DNA from: Zygnema cylindricum
Taxonomy: Eukaryota > Streptophyta > Zygnematophyceae > Zygnematales > Zygnemataceae
Reading direction: 5' to 3'
Assembly (NCBI GenBank): GCA_037447655.1
Contig: JBBHKE010003319.1
Span: 62,001-126,000 of the forward strand
Length of the DNA stretch: 64,000 nucleotides
Each line of letters begins with the position of its first letter. The stretch's first letter is position 1. The position numbers and the translations under genes were made by a program. Under the pieces are notes generated by a model. The model did no database searches, had not been told where the DNA came from, and saw only the letters and a list, made by a program, of their open reading frames with translations. Positions 2,342 through 56,283 of this stretch are shown piece by piece.

Positions 2342-4366
2342 CTCCCCTTATTTTCTAGTCTACTTTTTCTTTCAACTCACACTTAATAAAACATTAAAAC
2401 AAAAAAAATAAACAACATCAAACATCCTCACCCCTTTTTTTTTCCATTTTCTTTTCTTTTCATAAAACTTTAAGAAAATACAATTGCATTTCAAACAGTG
2501 TACTAGATAAACTTAAATAATAATTGCATCACATATTTTTTTTTGCATGCCATTTTTCATAAATCCGAGCTTTTGGAGCAAGGATTTTATCCATCTCATC
2601 CCTTTTTCATATGAGCAAAAAACCACATTCCTACTTGCATTTCAAACAGCCAGCCCCATCCCCAGCTTGCAGCACATACCCAGATGCTAACCCTTTTATA
2701 GGCACGCCTTCATAAATGGCATCACTCCCATAAGTGATGTGAAATCCATCCTCCCCCAAATTTTCCCAAAAACCACTAGTCCCTATTAAAAATTTCATAA
2801 CTTCTACATCTTTCGAACTCATATTTTTAACCATGATAATTACTCCATTTTCTGAACTTTCCTCACTCTCTCCCATGGAATTCTTTCCACTATCACTTTC
2901 TATTTTTATTCCCAAAATATTTCTTTTCCCCTAAACCTTTAATCAAATATTCCTCTTCTCTCCTATCCTTTGAACCCACCCTTAGATTCACTTCTCCCCT
3001 TTCCTCGGAATCCGTTGAAGTCTCCCTTTCATACCAATTTTCTGTTTCCAAATTGTCTATGAAATTATCCTCATTATTTTTTTTTTCCCATTTTCAATTA
3101 TGGATCGTAGATCTAGCTTTCTCATTTCTAAGTCATACACTCTACACTCCTTCAAATCCTCAAGTACCTCCACTCTCTTTACTTCCCTTATACCTCTAAA
3201 AGCACACTGTTGCTTTCATGAAATTTCTGTGTTCTTTTCTCTCTTCTTCATTCTAATGATGTGAAGAAGCTCCAAAATTTCTTCATCCTCTTTCTCCTCT
3301 TCCATTTCTTCCTCCTCGTCCATATTCCAACTTTTATGTTCATCCAAGCAAGGGCATTCCTCGATATAATGACCCGTTTCCCTTCAACACAAGCAAACCC
3401 CTTTATTCAAAGCTCCCCTTTCTTTTCCTCTCCCTCTCTTTCCACCGAAGTTCTGATATGGTTTACCTTTGTCTTTCTTTCTCTCATCACGCTTCCGCAC
3501 ATCATCGTCATTCCTCTTATCACACTTTTGCTCGTCATCGCCGTTCCTCTCATCACGGTTCCGCCGGTCACTACAAGTTGTCAGTGCATTTACCCTGTCA
3601 CTTCCCATACGAAGCTCCAAAGTGCTATCCCTCACAAGAATCATCCCCATGGTAATGCTCCAAGTCCAAGAGGAGCAATTCATAGCTTGCATACGCTAAA
3701 TTATGTCTTCGTATTCATCTGGAAGTTTCATGATTAGTGTGTTTATCTTTCTCACTCTAGATTTTACATAACCTTCACTAGCAAACTCAACATATAATGC
3801 AAGAATATCATCGCAAAACTCTATCATGTTACCGCCTTGATAAACATAGGCCTCTATTTCCGATTTTACTAATTGTTGCATCTGTATAGTTTCACTCTTA
3901 TAAAGGTTTATTATTGTTTCCCGGTGAACCCTTAGATTTAAAGAGGATAGTATGGACTTGGCCACATATATCAAATTATGAGATGTTTTGCTATAGAGTT
4001 TTTATATTCTCTAATTTACTTTTTGTTTTTTTCAGTTTTTGGTTCAGATAATCCCCACAAGTGAAACCGCAATAGAGAGCCTAGCTCCCCTCACCATCGA
4101 TGTCCCTTTATCTCTCTCCCCTTTTCCCCCTTCCATGGTTATGATTTTCCCTTCACCTTCTGTTGCATCCTTACTCCGTTTGGTTTTGAGGAAAGCCCTA
4201 GATGATTCTCCATAGTGAGTTTCTACAAACCACGGTGGGGACACCTCACTTGTCCCGAAACACTTCCCCATAAGTGCTTTTCGAAAAGCAATCCCTCGAT
4301 CGTGAACTCCTGATGAGTGAGTCTGTTCCATCAAACATAGGCACCATAGATGGTGGGCCCATAACT
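2342..4366 (-). pseudogene. N1 internal region (gag plus RNase H remnant, no PR/IN/RT)
   Basis: This is the whole internal region of a non-autonomous Copia element on the minus strand, only about 2.0 kb long. It begins at 4366 with the primer site AGTTATGGGCCCACC. Then come a broken gag (4334-3700), a damaged zinc knuckle (GHYIEEC, near 3365), a Glu/Lys-rich stretch, a short segment aligning with the pre-protease region of A elements, and an RNase H tail (2915-2631: YGSDAIYEG, then SGYVLQAGDGAGC). It ends with a PPT before 2341. Protease, integrase and RT are absent. The same layout recurs in N2 and N3, so the deletion is ancestral and not a private loss. Confidence 0.7.
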
Positions 4367-7824: not shown

Positions 7825-8915
7825 TGTAGAAACTAATGGTTTTATTAGTATTTTCTAGGTCTGAAAAGAAATATAGAAGTCGAGGTAGTCTATCTCTAAC
7901 TTCTCTCTCCAACTCTCAAACTTGTCGCAGTCACTGGGAAATTGGAGAGGAAGCTAGAGCCATGGCTACCTTGGCTATCCTGAGGTTTACGTGAATTTTA
8001 TATTAGGGTTTATTTATTTATTTAAAAGGTATGTGCCAGCGGCAGGATTTGATCCTTGTAACCTACCGGCCGGCAGACAGGAACTAGCCGGTAGCCTTAG
8101 CCGTTAAGTCTAGCCGTAGTATTACGTAACATGTAGTTTGATATTTATTAGTATTACGTAACATGTAGTTTGATATTTATTTAAATGATTATACGTGCGA
8201 TAAATCATTTAACTGAAATGAATTACGGGATACATAGATCCAGTAATATATAATGTACAAATTACGGTACGGACAAAAATCAATATCGCGTATTTATTTC
8301 TTTAATGAAACGAATATCGCGCATTTATTTATTACGGCTACGATTAAATGTGAATTTAATCGGACAGCCGCAATTAACGCCGCGATCGCGGAATAGGATT
8401 TCGGCGGTTTGTGGTCATCGCCACATCTGATGACACGTGGCGGAGTTACATTGGATCGCGGTATCTCCGAGGATTAAAAGAGCGAATCCTGACATACCAC
8501 GTGTCGACATTTAGGCCATGTCGTATAGTGTCCGTACAGAAAGTACACCGACAGTTGTACTTTTGTGTACGGAACTGTAATCTAATTGGTTCCGTACATC
8601 AGTAGATAGAGTCTTTGAGAGAGATAGGACTTAGAAAAATTAGGAGATAGGACCCTCTCTCCCACAGAGCTTCTGTACAAAAGGTCAACTTTGACCCTCG
8701 ATACCTTACTGCTCAGGGGAGCAAATTCAAAGATTCTTTTTGCTATCGACTCAGGGGAGTCTTGCCTTCACAGGGGTGAAGTTGGTCAAAGTTATTGTCT
8801 GCCAGTTTTTTTGGGTGGCAGTTTTTTTTTGCCGAAACACAAAGGGGTCAGGGTTATCCTATAGGCTTCTTGGAAGCTGTCCACTCTGAGGACTTATGGA
8901 GGTCTCAGAGTTTCA
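7825..8915 (+). repeat. A1 5' LTR (1091 bp)
   Basis: It runs from TGTAGAAACT to ATGGAGGTCTCAGAGTTTCA. It contains a G-box (8432-8441), a tRNA-acceptor-like hairpin near 8031-8076, and a GTAC stem-loop (CCGTACAGAAAGTAC 8532-8546 with GTACTTTTGTGTACGG 8557-8572). A direct duplication of about 37 bp (ATTACGTAACATGTAGTTTGATATT...) lies at about 8120-8185. Confidence 0.9.
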
Positions 8916-9860
8916 AGTTATGGGCCCACCCTCTAGGGTACCAATCTTTAAAGGAACTGGCTTCATATACTAGGAAAGTATGATGATAAGAGCTTTATGC
9001 GAAAAAATGTTTTGGGGGATAGTGAGTGGACGGCTGGGGCGTCCATCAAGTCTTGGAATTCCTCCAGGGTTTGGAGGAAGCAGATTTACCAAGAAAGAGG
9101 ATCCACCTTCAACGGAGGAAACAAAAGAAAGAGAGGTGGTGGACAAAGGAAATGAGAGGGAGGCGACCACACCAATTGCAACTGGTTCGGCATTCATGTC
9201 ACCTATTCCGAGGAACGAGGAGAATGATACTGAAACCTGGGACTTCAACAATATGGCAGCAAAGCACTTCATCCTACGCCATCTCACTCAAGGACTTGCA
9301 TGTCCTCATTTGCAGGTAGAGAGGGCATCCGATCTTTGGATGGCTCTCATAGAGATGTACCGAAGTGGTACGATTCAGCAACAACAGTTGGCTGATCAGA
9401 AAGTTAAGGAGTATGTATACAAAGGGGGAAATATGTTGGATTTTTGCAATGAGCTTGCTACACTCTTCATGGAGCTAGAGAGTGCGGGAAAAGATTTTAG
9501 TGAAAAAGAAAAGGTTACTGTTTACTGATGAAGTTACCCGATGAGTTCGAGAACATACTCAACTGTGTGCATGACTAGCCAGACTCAAGATGGATATAGA
9601 ACTCAGTGGTAGGGATGATTCTCGTTCGGGAGAATACGATTGAGATTGGAAGGGGAGGAAAGAGTGGCCAAGCCTTGGCAAATGCGACCGATTCGAGGAA
9701 CAAGGATTCCCAGAAACCGGTCGAAAACTATGGAGAGAGGGAGCAGAAAAATCATACCGTTGAATTTGGACCAAGGGCTCCCAATGGTTTATGTCATTTT
9801 TGTAAGAAACTTGGGCACTATATGGCAGAGTGCACTAAGCTAACCTAGCTTCGGTTAAAG
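8896..9860 (+). pseudogene. A1 gag
   Basis: This is the Copia gag polyprotein (nucleocapsid and capsid). The ATG at 8896 lies inside the 5' LTR, and the frame crosses into the internal region as MEVSEFQ|VMGPPSRVP. TAG at 8971 replaces the Trp of IYWES, and the frame resumes through 9528. A one-base loss near 9511 then shifts the frame. The rest reads from about 9533 and 9606-9848 and includes a full zinc knuckle CHFCKKLGHYMAEC (9792-9833), followed by a TAG at 9846. The gag is recognisable over its full length but could not be translated intact. Confidence 0.85.
8916..8930 (+). promoter_or_regulatory. Primer-binding site, half-tRNA type
   Basis: AGTTATGGGCCCACC follows the LTR end directly. 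Fourteen of its 15 bases are complementary to the anticodon stem-loop of initiator tRNA-Met (GGTGGGCCCATAACC, from memory). The equivalent sites are 16102 (A2), 29266 (A3), 46790 (A4, minus), 14618 (N2, minus), 4366 (N1, minus) and 24864 (D1). Confidence 0.7.
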
Positions 9861-13293: not shown

Positions 13294-14396
13294 TGTAGAA
13301 ATTGATGGTTCTTTTAGTATTTTCTAGGTCTAAATTGGAATACAGAAAGAAGCCGAGGTAGTCTGCCTCTAACTTCTCTCTCCAACTCCCACACTTGTTG
13401 CAGTCACTAACTTCTCTCTCCAACTCCCACACTTGTTGCAGTCACTGAGAAGTTGGAGAGGAACCTAGAGCCATGGCTATCTAGGCTATCCAAAGGTTTA
13501 CGGGAAATATATTAGTTTATTTCCGGATTGGTACGCTTATTTGCTAAAACAAATATGTCAGATCCATTATTTGATCCTGGTACCTGCCGATCGTCATTAC
13601 GCTGATAGCCGGTAGACTTATCTGTTAAGTCTAGAACTAGTGATACATACTACAAGGTTTGACATTTATTTAAATGTTACCACGTAGGATTATTAATTTA
13701 ACGGCGGATATTTACGGATACATAGATCCAGTTATGTAAAAGTACGGATTACGGTATGGATAAGAAACGAGTACCGCACATTTTGTTTCTTTTACGAAAC
13801 AAATACCGCACAAGTATTTATGACAGCTATGATTGAAATATGCATTCAATCGGACGGCCGAAAAGAAAGACGAGATCGCGGAAGAGATTCTCAGCGGTTT
13901 GTGGTCATTGCCACATCGGATGACACGTGGCACGATTACTTTGTCTCGCGGTATCTCTAGGGATTACAGGACCAAATCCGAATATGACATATGTCGACAT
14001 TTAGGCCATGTCTTACAATATCCGTACATAAAGTACACCGACAGCTGTACTTTTGTGTACGGTAGTGTAATATGATTGGTGCCGTACATTAGTAGATAGA
14101 GTTTAAGAGGGAGATAAGACTTAGAAAAATTTGGTATATAGGACCCTCTCTCCTAGAGAGCTTCTATACAAAAGACAACTTTGACCCTCCATAACTTACT
14201 ACTCAAGGGAGCAAATCCAAAGATTCTTTTTGCTATCGAATTAGGGGAGTCTTGCCTTTACAGGGGTGCAGGTAGTCAGGGTTTTTGTTTGCCAGGGTGG
14301 CAGTTATTTTTGCTGAAACACAAAGGGGTCAGGATTATCCTAGAGGCTTCTTAGAAGCTGTCCACTCTGAGGACTTATGGAGGTCTCAGAGTTTCA
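13294..14396 (+). repeat. A1 3' LTR (1103 bp)
   Basis: It starts TGTAGAAATTGATGG and ends ATGGAGGTCTCAGAGTTTCA. A 38-bp tandem duplication (13370-13407 and 13408-13445) is absent from the 5' LTR. About 13500-13800 differs greatly from the A1 5' LTR, although the outer parts match. Confidence 0.9.
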
Positions 14397-14638
14397 TTCC
14401 CTTCACCATCCGTTGCATTAGAACTCCAGTTGGTTTTTTTGGCAGCCCCAGATGTTTCTCCACAGTGAGCTTCTCCAAAGCCAAGTGGTGGACACCTCAT
14501 TTGTCCCGAATCTATTCCCCACAAGTGCTTCTCGAAATACAATAACTCTATCATAAAATCCCAATAAATGAAGTATGTTCCATCAAACATAGGCACCCTA
14601 GATGGTGGGCCCATAACTTGAAATTCAATGGGCTCCAT
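14397..14638 (-). pseudogene. N2 gag start
   Basis: On the minus strand the ATG is at 14638-14636, inside the N2 5' LTR. The protein starts MEPIEFQ|VMGPPSRVPMFDGTYFIYW and then has GAKKTNWSSNATDGEG up to the A1 insertion at 14401/14397. The primer site AGTTATGGGCCCACC is at 14618-14604. The reading continues at 7819 on the far side of A1. This part has no stop. Confidence 0.8.
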
Positions 14639-15057: not shown

Positions 15058-16101
15058 TGTAGAAACTAATGGATTTATTAGTATTTTCTAGGTCTAAATA
15101 GAAATATAGAAAGAAGCCGAGGCAGTCTACCTCTAACTTCTCTCTCCAAATCTCAAACTTGTCGCAGTCACTAAGAAATTGGAGAGGAAGCTAGAGCCAT
15201 GGCTACCTTGGCTATCCTGAGGATTACGGGAATTTTATACTAGGGTTTATTTATTTATTTAAAAGGAATGTGCCGGCGGCAGGATTTGATCCATGTACCT
15301 ACCGGCCGGCAGATAGGAAATAGCCGGTAGCCTTAGCCGTTAGATCTAGCAGGTAGTATTACGTGATATATAGTTTGATAATTATATATTTTATAAATAC
15401 GTACGATAATTCATTTAACTGTTACGATTTACGGGATGCATAGATCCGGTACGAATAACAGTACGGATTACGAATCAGTACCGCGCATTTGTTTCGGAAG
15501 TAAAATAAATACCGCGCATGTATTTATTACGGCCACGATTAAATCTGAATTTAATCGGACGGCCGGGGATTAGCGCCGAGATCGCGGAGGAAGATTTCGG
15601 CGGTTTGTGGCCATCGCCACATCGGATGACGCGTGGCGAAATTCCGTTGGATTGTGGAATCTCCGGAGATTATGGCACCGAATCCGGATTTGACATGTGT
15701 CGACATTTTGGACATGTCGTACAATGTCCGTCACATAAAGTACACCGGCGGCTGTACTTTTACGTACGGAACTCAATTCTGATTGGTTCCGTACATCAGT
15801 AGATAGAGTCTGTGAGAGAGATAGGACTTAGAAAAATTAGAAGATAGGACCCCCTCTCCCAGAGAGCTTCTGTACAAAAGGTCAACTTTGACCCCCCATA
15901 ACTTACTGCTCAGGGGAGCAAATTCAAAGATTCTTTTGCTATCGACTCAAGGGAGTCTTCTCTTCACAGGGTGAAGTTCGTCAGAGTTTTTGTCTTCCAG
16001 GGTGGCGATTATTTTTGCTGAAACACAAAGGGGTCAGGGTTATCCTAGAGGCTTTTTAGAAGCTGTCCACTCTGAGAACTTATGGAGGTCTCAGAGTTTC
16101 A
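15058..16101 (+). repeat. A2 5' LTR (1044 bp)
   Basis: It carries the clearest form of the first hairpin, TGCCGGC (15271-15277) with GCCGGCA (15305-15311), and a GTAC stem-loop (15728-15743 with 15754-15769). The gag ATG is at 16082, 20 nt before the end. Confidence 0.9.
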
Positions 16102-17040
16102 GGATATGGGCCCACCCTCTAGGGTACCAATCTTTAATGGAAATGGTTTCATATACTGGGAAAGTATGATAATAGGAGCTTTATGCGAATAAAGGTTTTG
16201 GGGGATAGTGAGTGGACGGTTGGGGCGTCCATCAAGTCTTGGAATTCCTCCAGAATTTGGAGGAAGCATATTCACCAGAAAAGAGGATACACCTTCAACA
16301 GAGGAAACAAAAGAAGGAGAGGTGGTGGACAAAGGAAAGGAGAAGGAGGCGACCACACCAATAGCAACTGGTTCAGCATTCATGTCACCTATTCCGAGGA
16401 ACGAGTACAATGATACTGAAACCTGGGACTTCAACAATATGGCGGCAAAGCACTTCATCCTACGCCATCTCACTCAAGGCCTTGCATGTCCCCATTTGCA
16501 GGTAGAAAGGGCATCCGATCTTTGGATGGCTCTCATAGAGATGTACCGAAGTGGTACGATTCAGCAACAACATTTGGCTGATCAGAAAGTTAAAGAGTAT
16601 GTATACAAAGGGGGAAATATGTTGGATTTTTGCAATGAACTTGCTACACTCTTCATGGAGTTAGAGAGTTAGGGAAAAGTTTTTAGTGATTATGAAAAGG
16701 TTAATTGTTTACTTATGAAGTTACCTAATGTGTTCGAGAACATAGTCAACCGTGTATAGGACTTGTCGGACTCAAGGTGGATATGGAACTCAGTGGTAGG
16801 GATGATTCTCGTTCGAGAGAATACGATTGAGATCCGAAGGGGAGGAAAGAGTGGCCAAGCCTTGGCAACAACGACCTATTAGAGGAACAAAGATTCCCGG
16901 AAACCAGTCGAAAACTATGGGGGTAGGGAGCAGAAAAAAACAGGCTGATGAGTTCGAACCAAGGGCTCCCAAAGGTTTATGTCATTTTTGTAAGAAACCG
17001 GGCACTATATGGCTGAGTGCAGTAAGCTAACCGAGCTTTG
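16082..17040 (+). pseudogene. A2 gag
   Basis: The start is MEVSEFQDMGPPSRVPIFNGNGFIYW. TAA at 16190 replaces a Lys codon, TAG at 16670 follows MELES, and an in-frame TAG lies near 16757. The gag core (KHFILRHLTQGL...TIQQQHLADQKVKEYVYKGG) is intact between the stops in the 16208-16672 frame. The zinc knuckle is split by a frameshift just before GHYMAEC. PBS GGATATGGGCCCACC (16102) has one change from the consensus. Confidence 0.83.
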
Positions 17041-20441: not shown

Positions 20442-21491
20442 TGTAGAAACTAATGGATTTATTAGTATTTTCTAGGTCTAAATAGAAATATAGAAAGAAG
20501 CCGAGGCAGTCTACCTCTAACTTCTCTCTCCAAATCTCAAACTTGTCGCAGTCACTGAGAAATTGGAGAGGAAGCAGAGCCATGGCTACCTAGGCTATCC
20601 TGAGGTTTACGAGAAATATATATTTGGGGTTTATTAAGTAAAAATATATATGCGGCGGCCACAAGATTTGAACCTGGTACTTGCGGACCGGCAAGCTACC
20701 GGTAGCCGGTAACCTTACCCGTTAAGTCAAGAAGTAGTATTACATACTATATAGTTTGATATCTATTTAAACATTATTACGTAGGATAAATCATTTAACT
20801 ATAATTGTTTACGGGATACATAGAACCGGTAGTGTAAAAGTACAAATTGCGGTACGCACAAGAAATCAATACCGCGCATTGATTTCGTAAGCGAAACAAA
20901 TACCGCGCATGTATTTATTACGGCTCCGATCAAATGTAATTTTAATCTAACGGCCAGAATTAGCGCCGAGATCTCGGAAGAAGTATTCGGCGGTTTATGG
21001 GCATCGCCACATCGGATGACACGTGGCAAAATTACATTGGATCGTGGTATCTCCGGAGATTACAGCACCGAATCCGGATATGACATGTGTCGACATTTAG
21101 GCCATGTTGTACAATTTTCGTACATAAAGTACTCCGGCGATTGTACTTTTATGTACGGAGGAGAAATCTGATTCGTTTCGTACATCACTAGATAGAGTCT
21201 GTGAGAGAGATAGGACTTAGAAAAATTAGGAGATATGATCCTCTCTCCCAAAGAGCTTCTGTACAAAAGGTCAACTTTGACCCTCCATAACTTACTGCTC
21301 AGGGGAGAAAATAAGAGATTCTTTTTGCTATCGACTCAGGGGAGTCTTGCCTTCACAGGGGTGAAGTTGGTCAGCGTTTTTGTCTGGCAGGGTGGCAGTT
21401 ATTTTTGCTTAAACACAAAGGGGTCAGGATTATCCTAGAGGCTTCTTGGAAGCTGTCCACTCTGAGGACTTATGGAGGTCTCAGAGTTACA
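20442..21491 (+). repeat. A2 3' LTR (1050 bp)
   Basis: It starts TGTAGAAACTAATGG after the PPT and ends GAGTTACA. Its first 150 bp nearly match the A2 5' LTR. The part around 20600-20900 does not, and reads instead AAGATTTGAACCTGGTACTTG and AAATCATTTAACTATAATTG. The G-box is at 21018-21027. Confidence 0.9.
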
Positions 21492-24863: not shown

Positions 24864-25650
24864 GGTTATGGATCCACCTTCTAGGGTGCCCACCTTCAAT
24901 GGATCTGGTTTCATTTATTAGGAAGCCATGATAATGGGGGCTTTGTGCGGAAAATAATACAAGGATATCGTCAGTGGACAAGGGAAACATCCACCTTCGG
25001 GAACTCCACCAGGATTTGGAGGAGTAAGGCTTCGTGCAGCACCGACTGCTTCAACGGTGGAGGTAGATGATGGGGACAGCAGTTTGTCCGAAAAGGGGAA
25101 AGGGAAGGAGACACCCCTCACTCCTATTGCCACGGCACCGGGAGCGCCGGCTGTGAAAACCGTGAAGAACGATGCTCAAATGTGGGAAGATGTAAACATG
25201 GCTGCCAATAAATTCATTCTAAGGTACCTCACTCAAGCTTTGGCCACCCCACACCTTCACATTAACAAGGCCGAGGAGTGGTGGGTGAGTTTAGTGGAGA
25301 TCTATAAAGCTATTACTATTCAGGAGCTCTAGTTGGCTGAGCAGAAGCAAGTGAGTTACACTTACAAAGGAGGAAAGATGTTGGAATATTGTAATGATCT
25401 TTCTTGTTTCTATATAGAGATAGAAAGTATCGGGTGGACAGGTACAATGAAGATGAAAATTAACACTCTCATCATGAAGTTACCAAACGAGTACGAGAAC
25501 ATAGTGTACCAAGTACAAGAAATGATTGATAGTTCATGGAAGTGGAATACAGTGGTCCGTAAGCTACTTGTGCAAGAAAACACCATGGAGATTAGGAGAG
25601 GAGGAAAGAGCATTCAAGCTCTAGCTCTAAGAGGGGAGTGATAGGGGAAG
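24844..25650 (+). pseudogene. D1 gag
   Basis: The start is MEDIELQ|VMDPPSRVPTFNGSGFIY, then a TAG where A elements have Trp (as in A1), and a further stop in CGK*YKD. The core from 25057 reads NMAANKFILRYLTQAL...EEWWVSLVEIYKA, has a TAG at 25330, and resumes LAEQKQVSYTYKGGKMLEYCNDL...KLPNEYENIVYQ to 25641. PBS is GGTTATGGATCCACC (24864-24878). A knuckle-like FCKKHAHLRTDC follows near 25720 with its first Cys lost. Confidence 0.8.
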
Positions 25651-28217: not shown

Positions 28218-29265
28218 TGTAGAAACTAATGGTTTTAAAGTATTTTCTAGGTCTGAATAGAAATAAAGAAGCCGAGGCAGTCTACCTCTAACTTCTCTCT
28301 CCAACTCTCAAACTTGTCGCAGTCACTGAGAAATTGGAGAGGATGCTAGAGCCATGGCTACCTAGGCTATCTTGAGGTTTACGGGAAATTTATATTAGTT
28401 AGGGTTAATTTATTTAAAAGGTATTGCCGGCGGCAGGAATTGATCCTTGCACCTACCGGCCGGCAGACAGGAAATAGCCGGTAGCCTAAGCCGTTAAGTC
28501 TAGCCGTAGTATTACGTAGCATATAGTTTGATATTTATTTAAATGATTATACGTGCGATAAATCATTTAACTGAAATGGATTACGGGATACATAGATCCA
28601 ATAATATATAATGTACGAATTACGGTACGAACAAAAATAAATACCGCGCATTTGTTTCGTAATTGAAACAAATACCGCGCATGTATTTATTACGGCTACG
28701 ATTAAATCCGAATTTAATCGGACGGCCGGGATTAGCGCCGAGATCGCGGAGGATGATTTTGGCGGTTTGTGGCCATCGTCACATCGGATGACGCGTGGCA
28801 AAATTACGTTGGATCGTGGAATCTCCGGAGATTATGGCACCGAATCCGGATATGACATGTGTCTACAATTAGGCCATGTCGTACAATGTCCGTACCTAAA
28901 GTACACCGGCAGATGTACTTTTATGTACGGAACTCTATTCTGATTGGTTCCGTACATCAGTAGATAGAGTCTGTGAGAGAGATAGGACTTAGAAAAAATT
29001 AGAAGATAGGACCCCCTCTCCCAGAGAGCTTCTGTACAAAAGGTCAACTTTGACCCTCCATAACTTACAGCTCAGGGGAGCAAATTCAGAGATTCTTTTT
29101 GCTACCGACTCAAGGGAGTCTTGCCTTCACAGGGGTGCAGGTGGTTAGGGTTTTTGTTTGCCAAGGTGGCAGTTATTTTTGCTGAAACACAAAGGGGTCA
29201 GAATTATCCTAGAGGCTTCTTGGAAGCTGTCCACTCTGAGGACTTATGGAGGTCTCAGAGTTTCA
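28218..29265 (+). repeat. A3 5' LTR (1048 bp)
   Basis: It runs from TGTAGAAACTAATGG to ATGGAGGTCTCAGAGTTTCA. Its central region is very close to the A1 5' LTR (for example GATTATACGTGCGATAAATC), closer than either A1 LTR is to the other. The GTAC stem-loop is near 28888-28930. Confidence 0.9.
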
Positions 29266-29884
29266 GGTTATGGGCCCACCCTCTAGGGTACCAATCTTTA
29301 ATGGAACTGGCTTCATATACTGGGAAAGTATGATGATAGGAGCTCTATGCGAAAAAAGGTTTTGGGGGATAGTGAGTGGACGGCTGAGGCGTCCATCAAG
29401 TCTTGGAATTCCTCCAGGGTTTGGAGGAAGCAGATTCACCAGGAAAGAAGATCCACCTTCAACGGAGGAAACAAAAGAAGGAGAGGTGGTGGACAAAGGA
29501 AAGGAGAAGGAGACGACAACATCAATGGCAACTAGTTCGGCATTCATGTCACCTATTTCGAGGAACGAGGAGAATGATACTGAAACCTGGGACTTCAACA
29601 ATGTGGCGGCAAAGCACTTCATCCTACGACATCTCATTCAAGGACTTGCATGTCCACATTTGCAGGTAGAAAGGGCATCCGATCTTTGGATGGCTCTCAT
29701 AGAGATGTACCGAAGTGGTACGATTCAGCAACAACAGTTGGCTGATCAGAAAGTTAATGAGTATGTATACAAAGGGGGAAATATGTTGGATTTTTGCAAT
29801 GAGCTTGCTACACTCTTCATGGAGCTACAGAGTGCGGGAAAAGATTTTAGTGAAAAAGAAAAGGTTAACTGTTACCTGATGTAG
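29246..29884 (+). pseudogene. A3 gag, best preserved N-terminal part
   Basis: This is the longest clean gag frame in the window: 212 codons from the LTR-internal ATG. It starts MEVSEFQ|VMGPPSRVPIFNGTGFIYWE and contains the capsid-like core KHFILRHLIQGL...TIQQQQLADQKVNEYVYKGGNM. The PBS GGTTATGGGCCCACC (29266-29280), a full 15-base match to the tRNA stem-loop, encodes residues 7-12. It is ended by TAG at 29882, where other copies have AAG (MKLPDEF), so a single base change separates it from the C-terminal part at 29900. Confidence 0.88.
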
Positions 29885-30937: not shown

Positions 30938-32524
30938 CCCTTTCCTACGTCAGCCACCTATAAGGGAGAAAAAATTCTAGATCTAGTACACACAGATAAT
31001 TGGGGACCGGCTAAAGTGCCCTCACCGGGGGGAAGAGATTTATGATGACTATAACTGATGATTGGTCTCGGTATTCCCGGGTATATTTTTTGAAAAACAA
31101 GTCAGAAGCTGAGGATTGTTTTAGACAATATAAAGCATGGAGCGAAAACTCCATGAAACTCCAATCAAGAGAGTAAGGAGTGACAATGGTGGAGAGTATA
31201 CTTCTAACTAGTTTGAGGATTTTCTGAGGGAAGATGGGGTTCAACACCAAAAGACAGTTCCAGAAAATCCGGAACAGAATGGGGTAGCTGAAAGGTTAAA
31301 TAGAACACTAAGTGATAGTGCTAGAAGTATGTTGTCAGCTAAAAAGATAGGAAAAAGGTTTTGGGCAGAAGCAATGAACTGTGCTAATTACCTCAAGAAT
31401 AGAGTTCTTACTTCAGCTATAAAAGATCAAACACCTTATGAGAGATGGACAGGCCGGAAACCAGACATATCTCACTTAAAGGTTTTCGGCAGTCAAGTGT
31501 TCAGTCTAGATACTGATCGGTCCAATTAGAAGGTAGATCCTAAAGGAAAACCGGGATACTTATTAGGATATGATGAAGATGTTAAAGGATATAGAGTTTA
31601 TGATCTAAAAAGGGAAGATATAATCTTAGTAAAGCATCTAGTAGTTATGGATGAAGGAAAGTCTGTGGATCCCTTCAAATATACGAAGTCAGTAAAAGTC
31701 AGATTTGAGTCAGAAAATTCCGATGACTTTGAGCTTCCTAACTATCCAGGCTTTAGAGAAGATGACATTCTTCCAGGAACAAATCAGACCGAAAAGGACT
31801 CGGCTGTGGAAACTCCAGTGACAACTCTACTCGAAGCGGAAAACGTGGTGGAAATTGATTCGGAATCAAGGGATAGGGGAGAAGCCGAGTTTGTTCGAAA
31901 GAATCCACGAGAACCATCTATTCCAGCCTCATATTTTGAGGGGGGGAGGAGAAGTAGCAAAAGACTGCAAGAAAAACAGGTTAATAACAAGGTAACTAAA
32001 CTATCTCATCAAGATGAACCTCAAACTTATGGAGAGGCGATGACTTGTCCAGAAAGAAACCGGTGGAAGACAGCCATCAATGAAGAGATGGCTTCAATCA
32101 TGGCAGCCGATACTTGGGAGCTGGTGGACTGTCCACCTAACCAAAAACCAATCGGTTGTAAGTGGGTTTTCAAATTGAAACTGAACCCAGATAACACAAT
32201 CGAGCGCTACAAGGCCAAATTAGTGGCAAAGGGATTTACACAAAAGGAAGGAATTGACTACGAGGAAACCTTTGCCCCGGTGGTCAGATTTCCCTCCGTC
32301 CGCATACTTCTCAGTTTAGCAGCGGCGGAAGACATAGAAGTGCATCAGATGGACATCAAGACACCCTTTTTGCATGGAGAATTGGAAGAGGAGATCTTCA
32401 TGCAACAACCCGAAGGTTTTGTGGAGGAAGGAGAGGAGAGTAAGGTATGCCGGCTGATTAAATCTCTTTATGGTTTGAAACAGACACATCGACAATGGAA
32501 TAAGAAGCTTGATGAGTTTCTTAC
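30938..32524 (+). pseudogene. A3 integrase core and RT (truncated)
   Basis: The integrase core is frameshifted near 31030-31150 and has a TAG near 31208 inside SDNGGEYTSN. Its C-terminal part is open at 31329-31529 (KKIGKRFWAEAMNCANYLKNR...DISHLKVFGSQVF) and stops at TAG 31527. The linker and RT are open from 31647 ([51 protein letters not shown]...MDIKTPFLHGELEEEIF...SLYGLKQTHRQWNKKLDEFLT). The sequence ends before YVDD because of the deletion. Confidence 0.85.
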
Positions 32525-32807
32525 CTAGGACTTAGAAAAATTAGAAGATAGGACCCTCTCTCCCAGAGAGCTTCTGTACAAAAGGTCAACTTTGACCCTC
32601 CATAACTTACTGCTCAGGGGAGCAAATTCAGAGATTCTTTTTGCTATCGACTAAGGGGAGTCTTACCTTCACAGGGGTTCACGTGGTCAGAGTATTTGTC
32701 TGCCAAGGTGGCAGTTATTTTTGCTTAAACATAAAGGGGTCAGGATTATCCTAGAGGCTTATTGGAAGTTGTCCACTCTGAGGACTTATGGAGGTCTCAG
32801 AGTTTCA
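32525..32807 (+). repeat. A3 3' LTR fragment
   Basis: These are the last 283 bp of an A LTR, joined to RT without obvious microhomology. It includes ATGGAGGTCTCAGAGTTTCA at its end. Confidence 0.85.
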
Positions 32808-36793: not shown

Positions 36794-36865
36794 GAGCTGG
36801 TGGCACAGTGGTTAGTGCGTTGACAGCTCAAGTCAGAGGTCCCAGGTTCGAGCCCTGGCCGGCTC
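36794..36865 (+). tRNA. tRNA-like Pol III unit (anticodon CTC position; possible SINE head or pseudo-tRNA)
   Basis: The 72 nt fold as a cloverleaf. The acceptor is GAGCTGG with CCGGCTC (one G-T pair), the D-arm GCAC with GTGC, the anticodon stem TTGAC with GTCAG, and the T-arm CCAGG with CCTGG around TTCGAGC. Box A (TGGCACAGTGG, 36801-36811) and box B (GGTTCGAGCCC, 36845-36855) fit the consensus, and TTTT follows at 36868-36871. The loop AGCTCAA would give anticodon CTC (Glu), but position 33 is G instead of the near-universal T, and it does not look like the plant tRNA-Glu I know. It may be a pseudo-tRNA or a SINE head. Confidence 0.5.
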
Positions 36866-36919
36866 ACTTTTCCCTAGTATGGGACATGCCGAATCCCGGA
36901 TTTCAAGGAAATCAACAGT

Positions 36920-44600: not shown

Positions 44601-46810
44601 GGCTTGTCCATCTCTCATAAGGTGTTTGATATTTTATAGCTGAAGTAAGAACTCTATTTTTGAGGTAATTAGCATAGTTCATTGCTTTTGCCCAAAATCT
44701 TTTTCCCATCTTCTTATCTGACAACATACTTCTAGCACTATCACTTAGTGTTCTATTTTACCTTTCAGTTACCCCATTTTGTTCCGAGTTTTCTGGGACT
44801 GTCTTTTGGTGTTGGACCCCATCTTCCCTAAGAAAATCCTCAAACTGGTTAGAAGTATACTCTCCACCATTGTCACTCCGTATTCACTCGATTGGAGTTT
44901 CATGGAGTTTTTCGCTCGATGCTTTATATTGTCTAAAACAATCTTGAGCTTCGGACTTGTTTTTCAAAAATACTTTCGGGAATGCCGAGACCAATCATCA
45001 ATGATAGTCATCATAAATCTCTTCCCCCCTTGGTGAGGGCACTTTAGCCAATCACCAAATATTTGTGTGTACTAGATCTATAATTTTTTCTCCCTTATAG
45101 GTGGCTGTTTTAGGAAAGGGTAATCTGTGTGTTTTACATTGAGCACATCCACTACAATCACTTATATTATCATTCTCACTAAACTTAATCCCTTCCACCA
45201 CTCCCATCTTTTTCGTTTCTCTTAACTTGTCTAGATTCACATGCCCAAGCCTCTTATGCCACATCATAATATCATGAACACCAGCATAATAAAGTTTCAT
45301 CTTATCATTATTTCAAACAAGCCTATACATCCCATGGCTACCTTTCTCAACAATGAAATAGACATCCTCCTCAAAGCTAGCAGTAAAGACTCATTCCCTA
45401 GTGCTAGTAAAAAAACCCTTATCTTCTAATACGGATGTAGAGATATGGTTTTTGTTCAGCTCCAGAATAAACAATACATTGGAGAATGTTTTTATGGATG
45501 TCTTTCCTTCTACTAACACTTTCAGATCTACCGATCGTACAAGAGTAGTGGTCAATATCCTCCCAACTCCGTACTCTATCTCTACGGTGGGAATCTTTCT
45601 TATCTTAGTGAACAGGTGCCTATCCTTACACATGTGCATGGAGGAACCTGAATCTATAATCAAGCATGTTTCACCTTTCAATCCACCGTAGCACATTTCT
45701 ACCTTCGTGGAATTTTGTCCTCATTTTTTGCCTCCAACTCCTCATCCAAAAAAAGCTCATCGTCCTCATCCTCTGATTTCGCCTCATGTACTTGTGTCAC
45801 AAGGGCCTTTTTATTTCCTCTTGGGGTACCACCGGTCTGCCCCTCCTTTAACCGAAGCTCGGTTAGCTTAGTGCACTCTACCATATAGTGCCCCAGTTAC
45901 TTACAAAAATGACATAAACCTTTGGGAGCCCTTGGTCCGAACTCGTCGGTCTGATTTTTCTGCTCCCTTCCTCCATAGTTTCCAACCGATTTTCGGGAAT
46001 ACTTGTTCCTCCAATCGGTCGCAGTTGCCAAGGCTTGACCACTCTTTCCTCCCCTTCGGATCTCAATCGTATTCTCCCGAACGAGAATCATCCCTACCAC
46101 TGAGATCCATATCCACCTTGATTCCAGCAAGTCCTGCACACGGTTGACTATGTTTTCGAACTCATCGGGAAACTTCATCTGTAAACAATTAACCTTTTAT
46201 TTGTCACTATAATCTTTTCCCGCTCTCTCTAGCTCCATGAAGAGTGTAGCAAGCTCATTGCGAAAATCTAACATCTTCCCCCCATTGTATACATACTCCT
46301 TAACTTTCTGATCAACCAACTGTTGTTGCTGAATCGTACCACTTCGGTACATCTCTATGAGAGCCATCAAAAGATCGGATGCCCTTTCTACTTGCAAATG
46401 AGGACATGCAAGTCCTTGAAAGAGATGGCGTAGGATGAAGTGCTTTGCCGCCATATTGTTGAAGTCCTAGGTTTCACTATCATTCTCCTCGTTCCTCGGA
46501 ATAGGTGACATGAATGTCGAACCAGTTGCTATTGGTGTGGTCGTCTCCTTCTCTTTTCCTTTGTCCACCACCTCTCCCTACTTTGTTTCCTCCGTTGAAG
46601 GTGGATCCTCTTTCCTGGTGAATTTGCTTCCTCCAAACCCTGGAGGGATTCCAAGACTTGATGGACGCCCCAATCGTCCACTCACTATCCCCCAAAACCT
46701 TTTTTCGCATAGAGCTCCTATCATCATACTTTTCAGTATATGAAGCCAGTTCCATTAAAGATTGGTACCCTAGAGAGTGGGTCTATAACCTGAAACTCTG
46801 AGACCTCCAT
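41694..46810 (-). pseudogene. A4 gag-pol, broken
   Basis: The minus-strand gag ATG is at 46810, inside the 5' LTR, and the PBS has mutated to GGTTATAGACCCACT (46790-46776). Gag core segments are at 46454-46197 and 46178-45897, with a knuckle near 45900. Protease has DSGSS in place of DSGAS (45696-45391). The integrase zinc finger is at 45300-45052, and the integrase C-terminal side at 44727-44470, where the E solo LTR interrupts it. The linker is at 43665-43312 and RT at 43256-42660, with YVDD at 42689-42678. RNase H is open at 42215-41694 (173 codons: WSDASYGD, STMEAEY, CDNQAT). Many stops and shifts separate the parts. Confidence 0.87.
43733..44467 (+). mobile_element. Solo LTR of family E (735 bp) inside A4 pol
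   Basis: It runs from TGTTGTTTTTT to GTAGAATAACA, flanked by a perfect TSD CCTTT (43728-43732 and 44468-44472). Removing it restores the A4 frame around KGYRVYD. The 59 bases at its end begin with an ATG (44409) and encode MSTSTTTAAPPPAPVVVE, which suggests that this family too starts gag inside the LTR. It contains GC-rich repeats of GCAGCGCAGCTGCTATA (about 43760-43880) and a tandem array of TAGCTCAGTGGTAGCTTAGTGA-like words (about 44030-44100). Confidence 0.8.
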
Positions 46811-55960: not shown

Positions 55961-56283
55961 TTACGATACAATTTGGAGAAATGGTAAAAGGTTTGGCGTT
56001 TCGTGCGCGGAAGACGCACGAAATGAATTGCTCGATGTTTCGTGCGCGGAAGACAAACGAAATGAATTGCTCGATGTTTCGTGCGCGGAAGACGCACGAA
56101 ATGAATTGCTCGATGTTTCGTGCGCGTACGGCGCACGAAATGAATTGCTCGATGTTTCGTGCTCGTAAGACAAACGAAATGAATTGCTCGATGTTTCGTG
56201 CGCATAAGACGCACGAAATGAATTGTTCGAGGTTTCGTGCGCTTACGGCGCACGAAACGTATGATTCTTCTTTTGTGCTCTAG
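55810..56283 (+). CDS. Hypothetical ORF made largely of 13-residue repeats
   Basis: A 157-codon ATG frame. The first about 60 residues include a hydrophobic stretch (FGLCIIFTATIMTAVTM). The rest is 13-residue repeats of the type FRARKTHEMNCSM, encoded by the 39-bp minisatellite. Because 39 is a multiple of three, the frame is open on both strands and in other frames, so openness is weak evidence. No family is recognised. It is probably not a gene, but a recent orphan cannot be excluded. Confidence 0.2.
   Translation: MKPVDDRRPLSSKFGDVDVSHSHSFGLCIIFTATIMTAVTMNAYDFFTRGVTIQFGEMVKGLAFRARKTHEMNCSMFRARKTNEMNCSMFRARKTHEMNCSMFRARTAHEMNCSMFRARKTNEMNCSMFRAHKTHEMNCSRFRALTAHETYDSSFVL
55999..56258. repeat. 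39-bp minisatellite, 6.7 units, each a hairpin
   Basis: Units start at 55999, 56038, 56077, 56116, 56155, 56194 and 56233 (the last partial). Each reads TTTCGTGCGC..., a short centre, GCACGAAA, then TGAATTGCTCGATG. TTTCGTGCG and CGCACGAAA are perfect inverted repeats. Units 2 and 5 have CAAACGAAA instead, which breaks the stem. Confidence 0.85.

Follow-up and report, generated by a model that had tools for sequence, protein, structure and literature searches.

Retroelements of the genus Hemivirus, among them Drosophila copia and 1731, yeast Ty5 and Volvox Osser, are primed by a half-molecule of tRNA and start their cDNA at nucleotide 40 (PMC1181622). In green plants, sites complementary to half-molecule tRNA-Met have been reported for the Ty1/copia lineages Osser and Bryco and for part of Gymco-II, and in that study about 2% of elements use a half tRNA, of Met or of Ile (Neumann et al. 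2019, PMC6317226). Half-tRNA priming as such is therefore no novelty for land plants. A different arrangement is found in yeast Ty1, where the Gag AUG lies in the LTR behind a 53-nt leader and the primer site (nt 95-104) is inside gag, but where the 3' end of initiator tRNA-Met is used; the structured Ty1 leader, which includes a long pseudoknot, serves translation, packaging and priming (PMC5454406), and one review places the Ty1 primer site within U5 (PMC5371799). RNA hairpins at the junction of LTR and primer site are described in fungal GalEa, whose Conserved Hairpin Site is thought to be relevant to reverse transcription (PMC5445492), and in Rous sarcoma virus, where a U5 stem-loop is reported to matter for reverse transcription (PMC5445492, PMC3601003).

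We analyzed a stretch of 64,000 nucleotides from the green alga Zygnema cylindricum (the window; GenBank assembly GCA_037447655.1, contig JBBHKE010003319.1, positions 62,001 to 126,000, forward strand). Judged from their sequence, its Ty1/copia retrotransposons are probably hemivirus-like, with gag starting inside the LTR, an RNA hairpin that holds the AUG in its loop, and priming by the 5' half of tRNA-Met. They would thus share the half-tRNA primer with hemiviruses and with Osser, Bryco and Gymco-II, to one of which lineages they may belong; however, a primer site inside gag is not described in the parts of PMC1181622 available to us, and the available parts of PMC6317226 are silent on a U5 hairpin and on gag starting within the LTR or containing the primer site. 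Ty1 differs in its tRNA 3'-end primer and in having a long pseudoknot instead of a short U5 hairpin whose loop holds the AUG, whereas GalEa lacks a tRNA site and carries its hairpin after the LTR, and a gag AUG within the hairpin is not described for GalEa or Rous sarcoma virus in the accessible portions of PMC5445492 and PMC3601003. In the literature covered, which took in few subscription papers and is weak evidence of absence, neither half-tRNA priming together with a gag-internal primer site in one plant element nor a gag AUG inside a U5 hairpin was found.

Elements of the window and their probable primer site

Self-comparison of the window gave LTR pairs for elements A1 (7825-8915 and 13294-14396), A2 (15058-16101 and 20442-21491) and, on the minus strand, A4 (47858-46791 and 41680-40607), with target duplications TTCCC at A1 and CTAAA at A2. 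These three are old copies, since the LTRs of a pair differ by 18.5% in A1, 14.4% in A2 and 7.0% in A4. The 5' LTR of A3 (28218..29265, +) runs from TG to a terminal CA at 29264-29265, and the gag open frame, which contains PF14223 and spans 212 codons in this copy (29246..29884, +), begins within it at an ATG (29246..29248, +) located in the candidate hairpin loop. A3 itself is incomplete: its interior stops at 32525 and is directly followed by no more than the last 282 nt of an LTR (32526-32807). On the plus strand the order of Pfam domains is PF14223, PF22936 and PF13976 (29900-30937), and PF07727 RVT_2 (31647-32528). This gives a copia-type gag and a predicted integrase region ahead of the reverse transcriptase, as in Ty1/copia (Pseudoviridae) elements. 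The species-named reverse transcriptase relatives among the matches listed were flowering-plant copia elements, and a search for gag homologues returned none at E <= 0.001. The window also holds a tRNA-Glu (ctc) gene predicted by ARAGORN among the retrotransposons (36794-36867), a tandem repeat of about 78 bases (55998-56257), in one frame of which FRARKTHEMNCSM recurs, and an open frame with a GDP-fucose O-fucosyltransferase domain (PF10250; 57924-59345, -) that is likely a host gene.

A sequence-only reading of this DNA had placed the LTR end exactly 20 nt past the gag ATG, and this distance was recovered at 7/7 junctions (A1, A2, A3, A4, D1 and two of the N family), with the limits set by the LTR pairs, the TG...CA ends and the two target duplications. 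The terminal dinucleotide is CA in six of the seven junction LTRs and TA in one N copy, and the LTR-encoded gag starts vary among the junctions (MEVSEF, MEDIEL, MEPIEF). Directly after the A3 LTR stands GGTTATGGGCCCACC (29266..29280, +), which complements nt 25-39 of initiator tRNA-Met without a mismatch. As the same reading had claimed, these 15 bases or near variants of them, with 0-3 mismatches, follow the LTR at all seven junctions: there is one mismatch in A1 (8916..8930, +), A2 (16102..16116, +) and both N-family sites (14604..14618, -, and 4352..4366, -), two in D1 (24864..24878, +) and three in A4 (46776..46790, -). In three of these seven sites (8916; 14618, -; 4366, -) the first base is A, not G; it would face the 3' end of the primer, and the Gln codon is preserved (CAA for CAG). 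The layout is Ty1-like in that the gag start codon, if used as we infer, lies in the LTR and the primer site lies within gag: the site takes in the last base of codon 7, the whole of codons 8-11 and the first two bases of codon 12, and the gag frame continues through it. The proposal that the site doubles as gag codons therefore stands, whereas its residue numbering shifts by one, as the 15 bases encode Q7-V-M-G-P-P12 and VMGPPS constitutes residues 8-13.

Matches to the 15-mer with up to three mismatches numbered 9 in the window, compared to a mean of 0.78 and a maximum of 5 in 100 shuffles. Across the 352.8-Mb assembly in which the window lies, the exact 15-mer occurs 5974 times (3019 + 2955), while the reversed-pattern control occurs 6 times (3 + 3). 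The sequence GGTGGGCCCATAACCCACAGG is present at 6 genome places, all within tRNA-Met(cat) genes predicted by ARAGORN; the complement of the primer site corresponds to nt 25-39 in five of them, and in the sixth the ARAGORN gene start is one base earlier. Counted from the D loop, nt 25-39 are standard positions 26-40. The local tRNA genes thus bear out the proposed complementarity to the 5' half of initiator tRNA-Met, with the match ending at nt 39, and the possibility that the local initiator tRNA, which we take to be of the plant type, lacks the sequence did not materialize. The site hence adjoins the LTR, is complementary to the anticodon arm of the initiator tRNA and ends near nt 39/40, as in hemiviruses, and complements nt 25-39 and not the tRNA-Met 3' end used by Ty1.

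To sample copies beyond the window, 68 loci were taken from among the 100 places that head the listing for the 15-mer (5974 in all), giving 68 occurrences and 66 distinct junctions, which are uninformative on variation within the primer site because they were picked by the exact site. An ATG was located at -20 (counted back from the LTR end) in 61/66 of these junctions, while any other distance within 120 nt was used at most twice; the site was preceded by CA in 61/66, CT in 3 and TA in 2, and the frame from the ATG was open to +130 in 38/66. Among 30 loci picked by gag similarity (one of them A3), 29 had the exact site and all 30 the ATG. A further 20 copies were drawn from the 32 rows with a 1454-codon stop-to-stop frame among 150 scored by gag similarity: the site was exact in 18 and had one mismatch in 2, the ATG was present in 19 and replaced by TTG in one (L116), and the full 11-pair stem described below was found in all 20. 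All 50 gag-picked copies are close relatives of A3. Intact members with an ordinary primer site, which would have spoken against the sequence-only reading, did not appear among these 20, each of which carries the half-tRNA site. One divergent copia-like copy in the diverse sample, L010, has the same 15-mer (primer site at 1201) followed by a gag-like frame but lacks an in-frame ATG at -20; the two ATGs of its LTR (-25 and -10) are both out of frame, and it possibly represents a second lineage using the same primer.

The ATG in the LTR

Mean column entropy dropped from 1.27 bit at -60..-21 to 0.61 bit at -20..-1, and -20 was the best of the boundaries scanned. Within this region ATGGAG (-20..-15) had an entropy of 0.27 bit, compared to 1.24 just before it, 1.12 at -14..-10 and 0.55 at -9..-1. 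Because low-entropy ATGGAG lies between variable flanks, the ATG is a conserved island and its conservation is more than that of the LTR tip. In 7/13 window LTR ends an in-frame stop is found three codons upstream of the ATG, and these same 7 contain no other ATG in their last 140 nt. Furthermore, ATG counts in 65 copies were 8, 24, 23, 15 and 30 per 70 nt going from -21 to -370, and 118, 77 and 84 further upstream. The copies being related and the -370 limit having been chosen after the counts were seen, ATG was at 0.36 of expectation in -370..-21, the most depleted of the 64 triplets (rank 1), as opposed to 0.98 (rank 33) in -720..-371; in 24 dissimilar copies the values for the same two stretches were 0.45 (rank 1) and 0.94 (rank 26). 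In A3 the 350 nt that are ATG-depleted across the sampled copies correspond to a putative 5' leader at 28896..29245 (+), with the same caveat that its 370-nt limit was set after the counts were seen. Such ATG avoidance is the pattern that a scanned leader ending at the -20 ATG would leave, and these sequence patterns suggest that the -20 ATG behaves as a start codon.

LTR codons 2-6 showed no sign of selection at the codon level, with pN 0.25 and pS 0.275, no better than in other frames, whereas gag past the primer site had pN 0.208 and pS 0.592 (13 dissimilar of 38 open copies). The idea that primer and capsid are under joint constraint is consequently borne out in part: the site is gag-coding, but the LTR-coded residues 2-6 lack constraint at the codon level. 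This absence, together with the open 1454 codons of L116 despite its TTG at -20, would fit a Gag made mainly from the primer-site AUG (codon 9, the complement of the tRNA anticodon), with the LTR ATG dispensable or a leaky first start. The context of the primer-site AUG also favors it, with G at -3 and G at +4, while the LTR ATG has C at -3 in 46/66 copies. However, ATGGAG at -20 is more conserved than its neighbors, the upstream avoidance of ATG extends right to the LTR ATG, and the primer-site AUG is required anyway because it is the complement of CAU; we therefore regard a main start in the primer site as unlikely. Still less credence, indeed very little, goes to the view that the real primer is something else and that the 15-mer match has another purpose. 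A usual 3'-end tRNA-Met site after CA does exist at 94 places in the genome (52 + 42; control 2 + 0), but the exact 15-nt complement sits directly at the LTR end in thousands of copies, and it ends where published hemiviruses start, at nucleotide 40 in standard numbering (PMC1181622).

A counter-case to a start at the LTR ATG is presented by 25/30 of the loci first picked by gag similarity (L060-L084), which lack a single base a short way past the primer site. The loss leaves both AUGs, that of the LTR and that of the primer site, outside the gag frame, which is itself closed by a stop just upstream (frames inspected in 2/25). Near-identical copies are numerous, and the lineage is probably recent because 24/25 are identical over the stretch shown. 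Most likely these copies propagated by means of Gag supplied by other elements; alternatively, translation may start further downstream.

A candidate hairpin at the LTR end

The sequence around the LTR ATG can fold into a hairpin of 11 pairs, in which -33..-26 pairs with -12..-5 and -24..-22 with -15..-13. In A3 the lower and upper parts of the 5' arm are at 29233..29240 and 29242..29244, the loop with the AUG (-21..-16) at 29245-29250, and the 3' arm (-15..-5), which also codes for part of gag residues 2-6, at 29251..29261 (all +). In some copies an outer stem extends the hairpin to the LTR end and the first bases of the primer site. Across 65 junctions, from which the divergent and misaligned L010 had been dropped, 89.9% of stem cells pair, 94 cells are doubly changed compared to 34.1 +- 5.2 in shuffles, and stem covariation is 0.440, while shuffles give 0.201 +- 0.014 and slid versions of the stem never exceed 0.136. 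The observed switches are U-A/C-G, U-A/A-U and A-U/U-A/G-C. With the outer stem included, 80.5% of cells pair, 97 are doubly changed and covariation is 0.343. The 12 window LTR ends (10 distinct) gave 94.5% pairing, 16 double changes against 4.8 and a covariation of 0.497 against 0.206 in shuffles, a repeat that is short of fully independent because it uses other copies of those same families and the stem was first noticed with A3 in sight. Swapping 3' arms between copies reduced pairing from 10.02 to 8.53 of 11 pairs, with a maximum of 8.97 in 2000 swaps.

Two further measures, described by the covariation tool as the least swayed by relatedness, did not rise above shuffles: the number of pairs with a double change (125/500 for the 65 junctions, 188/500 with the outer stem, 47/500 for the window ends) and the number of pair types (60/500, 58/500 and 375/500 for the same sets). 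RNAalifold by itself predicted 3 pairs. In the APC ranking three stem pairs are in the top 9 and the top pair is outside the stem. The mean folding z was -1.98 for -40..+1 (11/25 copies below -2); two upstream windows gave -0.02 and -0.06, and +2..+43 gave -0.84. The AUG was unpaired in 62/65 predicted folds. Within 270 nt of context the stem was kept above 0.5 in 38/64 copies, and the mean probability of being unpaired was 0.80 at the AUG and 0.33 across the primer site. A covariance model built from the hairpin piece recovered 12/12 listed window LTR ends and 3 more matches below E 0.01, and no Rfam match to the region (28900-29500) was obtained up to E 1. A further pairing of U5, with nt 2-10 in the 5' strand of the half-tRNA, looked perfect in family A (CCACTCTGA) and was rejected, as shuffled tRNA segments did equally well (p 0.27 to 0.73); the U5 bases concerned pair with the other hairpin arm.

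The covariation could in principle reflect shared descent of a few subfamilies without a functional hairpin. The copies do form a handful of subfamilies, two of the five covariation measures fail to exceed shuffles and the strongest APC pair is not a stem pair; on the other hand, the slid controls retain the same relatedness and yet score far lower, and both the high rank of three stem pairs and the more stable folding of the LTR end, relative to the upstream windows, speak against it, which makes such an artefact quite improbable. Somewhat less remote, though still improbable, is that the conservation and inversion at the LTR end belong to the DNA, for example as an end recognized by integrase, rather than to an RNA structure. 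Integrase must bind the U5 tip, which is where the stem is located; -9..-1 is conserved, and G-U accounts for just 50/714 cells. Against a DNA feature, the stem extends 33 nt inward, its arms are poorly conserved yet match each other, and the AUG is placed in the loop in nearly all of the predicted folds. An RNA hairpin, a feature absent from the sequence-only reading, would also explain the nucleotide conservation over LTR codons 2-6 better than codon constraint.

A proposed mechanism and its significance

In the mechanism we propose, element RNA would start about 370 nt before the LTR end, ribosomes would scan the leader of about 350 nt to its first AUG, in the hairpin loop, and Gag-Pol would be made as one frame from there. 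In the particle, initiator tRNA-Met, severed after nt 39 (standard position 40), would supply a 5' half that pairs with gag codons 7-12 and primes minus-strand DNA, whose synthesis would copy the hairpin first. By analogy with the Rous sarcoma virus U5 stem, the hairpin most likely holds the region of U5 and primer site in a form usable by reverse transcriptase while keeping the AUG exposed. Translation start and copying start would then share one short module.

More speculatively, and with low confidence on our part, hairpin, AUG and primer site may together act as a switch by which one tRNA governs whether the RNA is translated or reverse-transcribed; as a whole molecule this tRNA would read the loop AUG and as a 5' half it would prime. 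Under such a switch the whole initiator tRNA could also read the primer-site AUG, the complement of its anticodon. The plus strand, being copied from the primer, would restore the primer-site codons. Because plus-strand DNA copies the primer, the Gag residues encoded there would, if the switch operates, be rewritten from the host tRNA in each round, making part of the capsid tRNA-templated.

For annotation, the arrangement carries a warning: the LTR end codes for gag, and gag searches that start after the LTR lose its beginning. The candidate RNA hairpin, with the gag start codon displayed beside the primer site, would be an addition to the known arrangements, and half-tRNA priming and a gag-internal primer site, described apart so far, appear joined in a plant element with thousands of sites in a single genome. 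The sharing of one retroelement RNA between ribosomes and reverse transcriptase thereby becomes testable by probing and cDNA assays.
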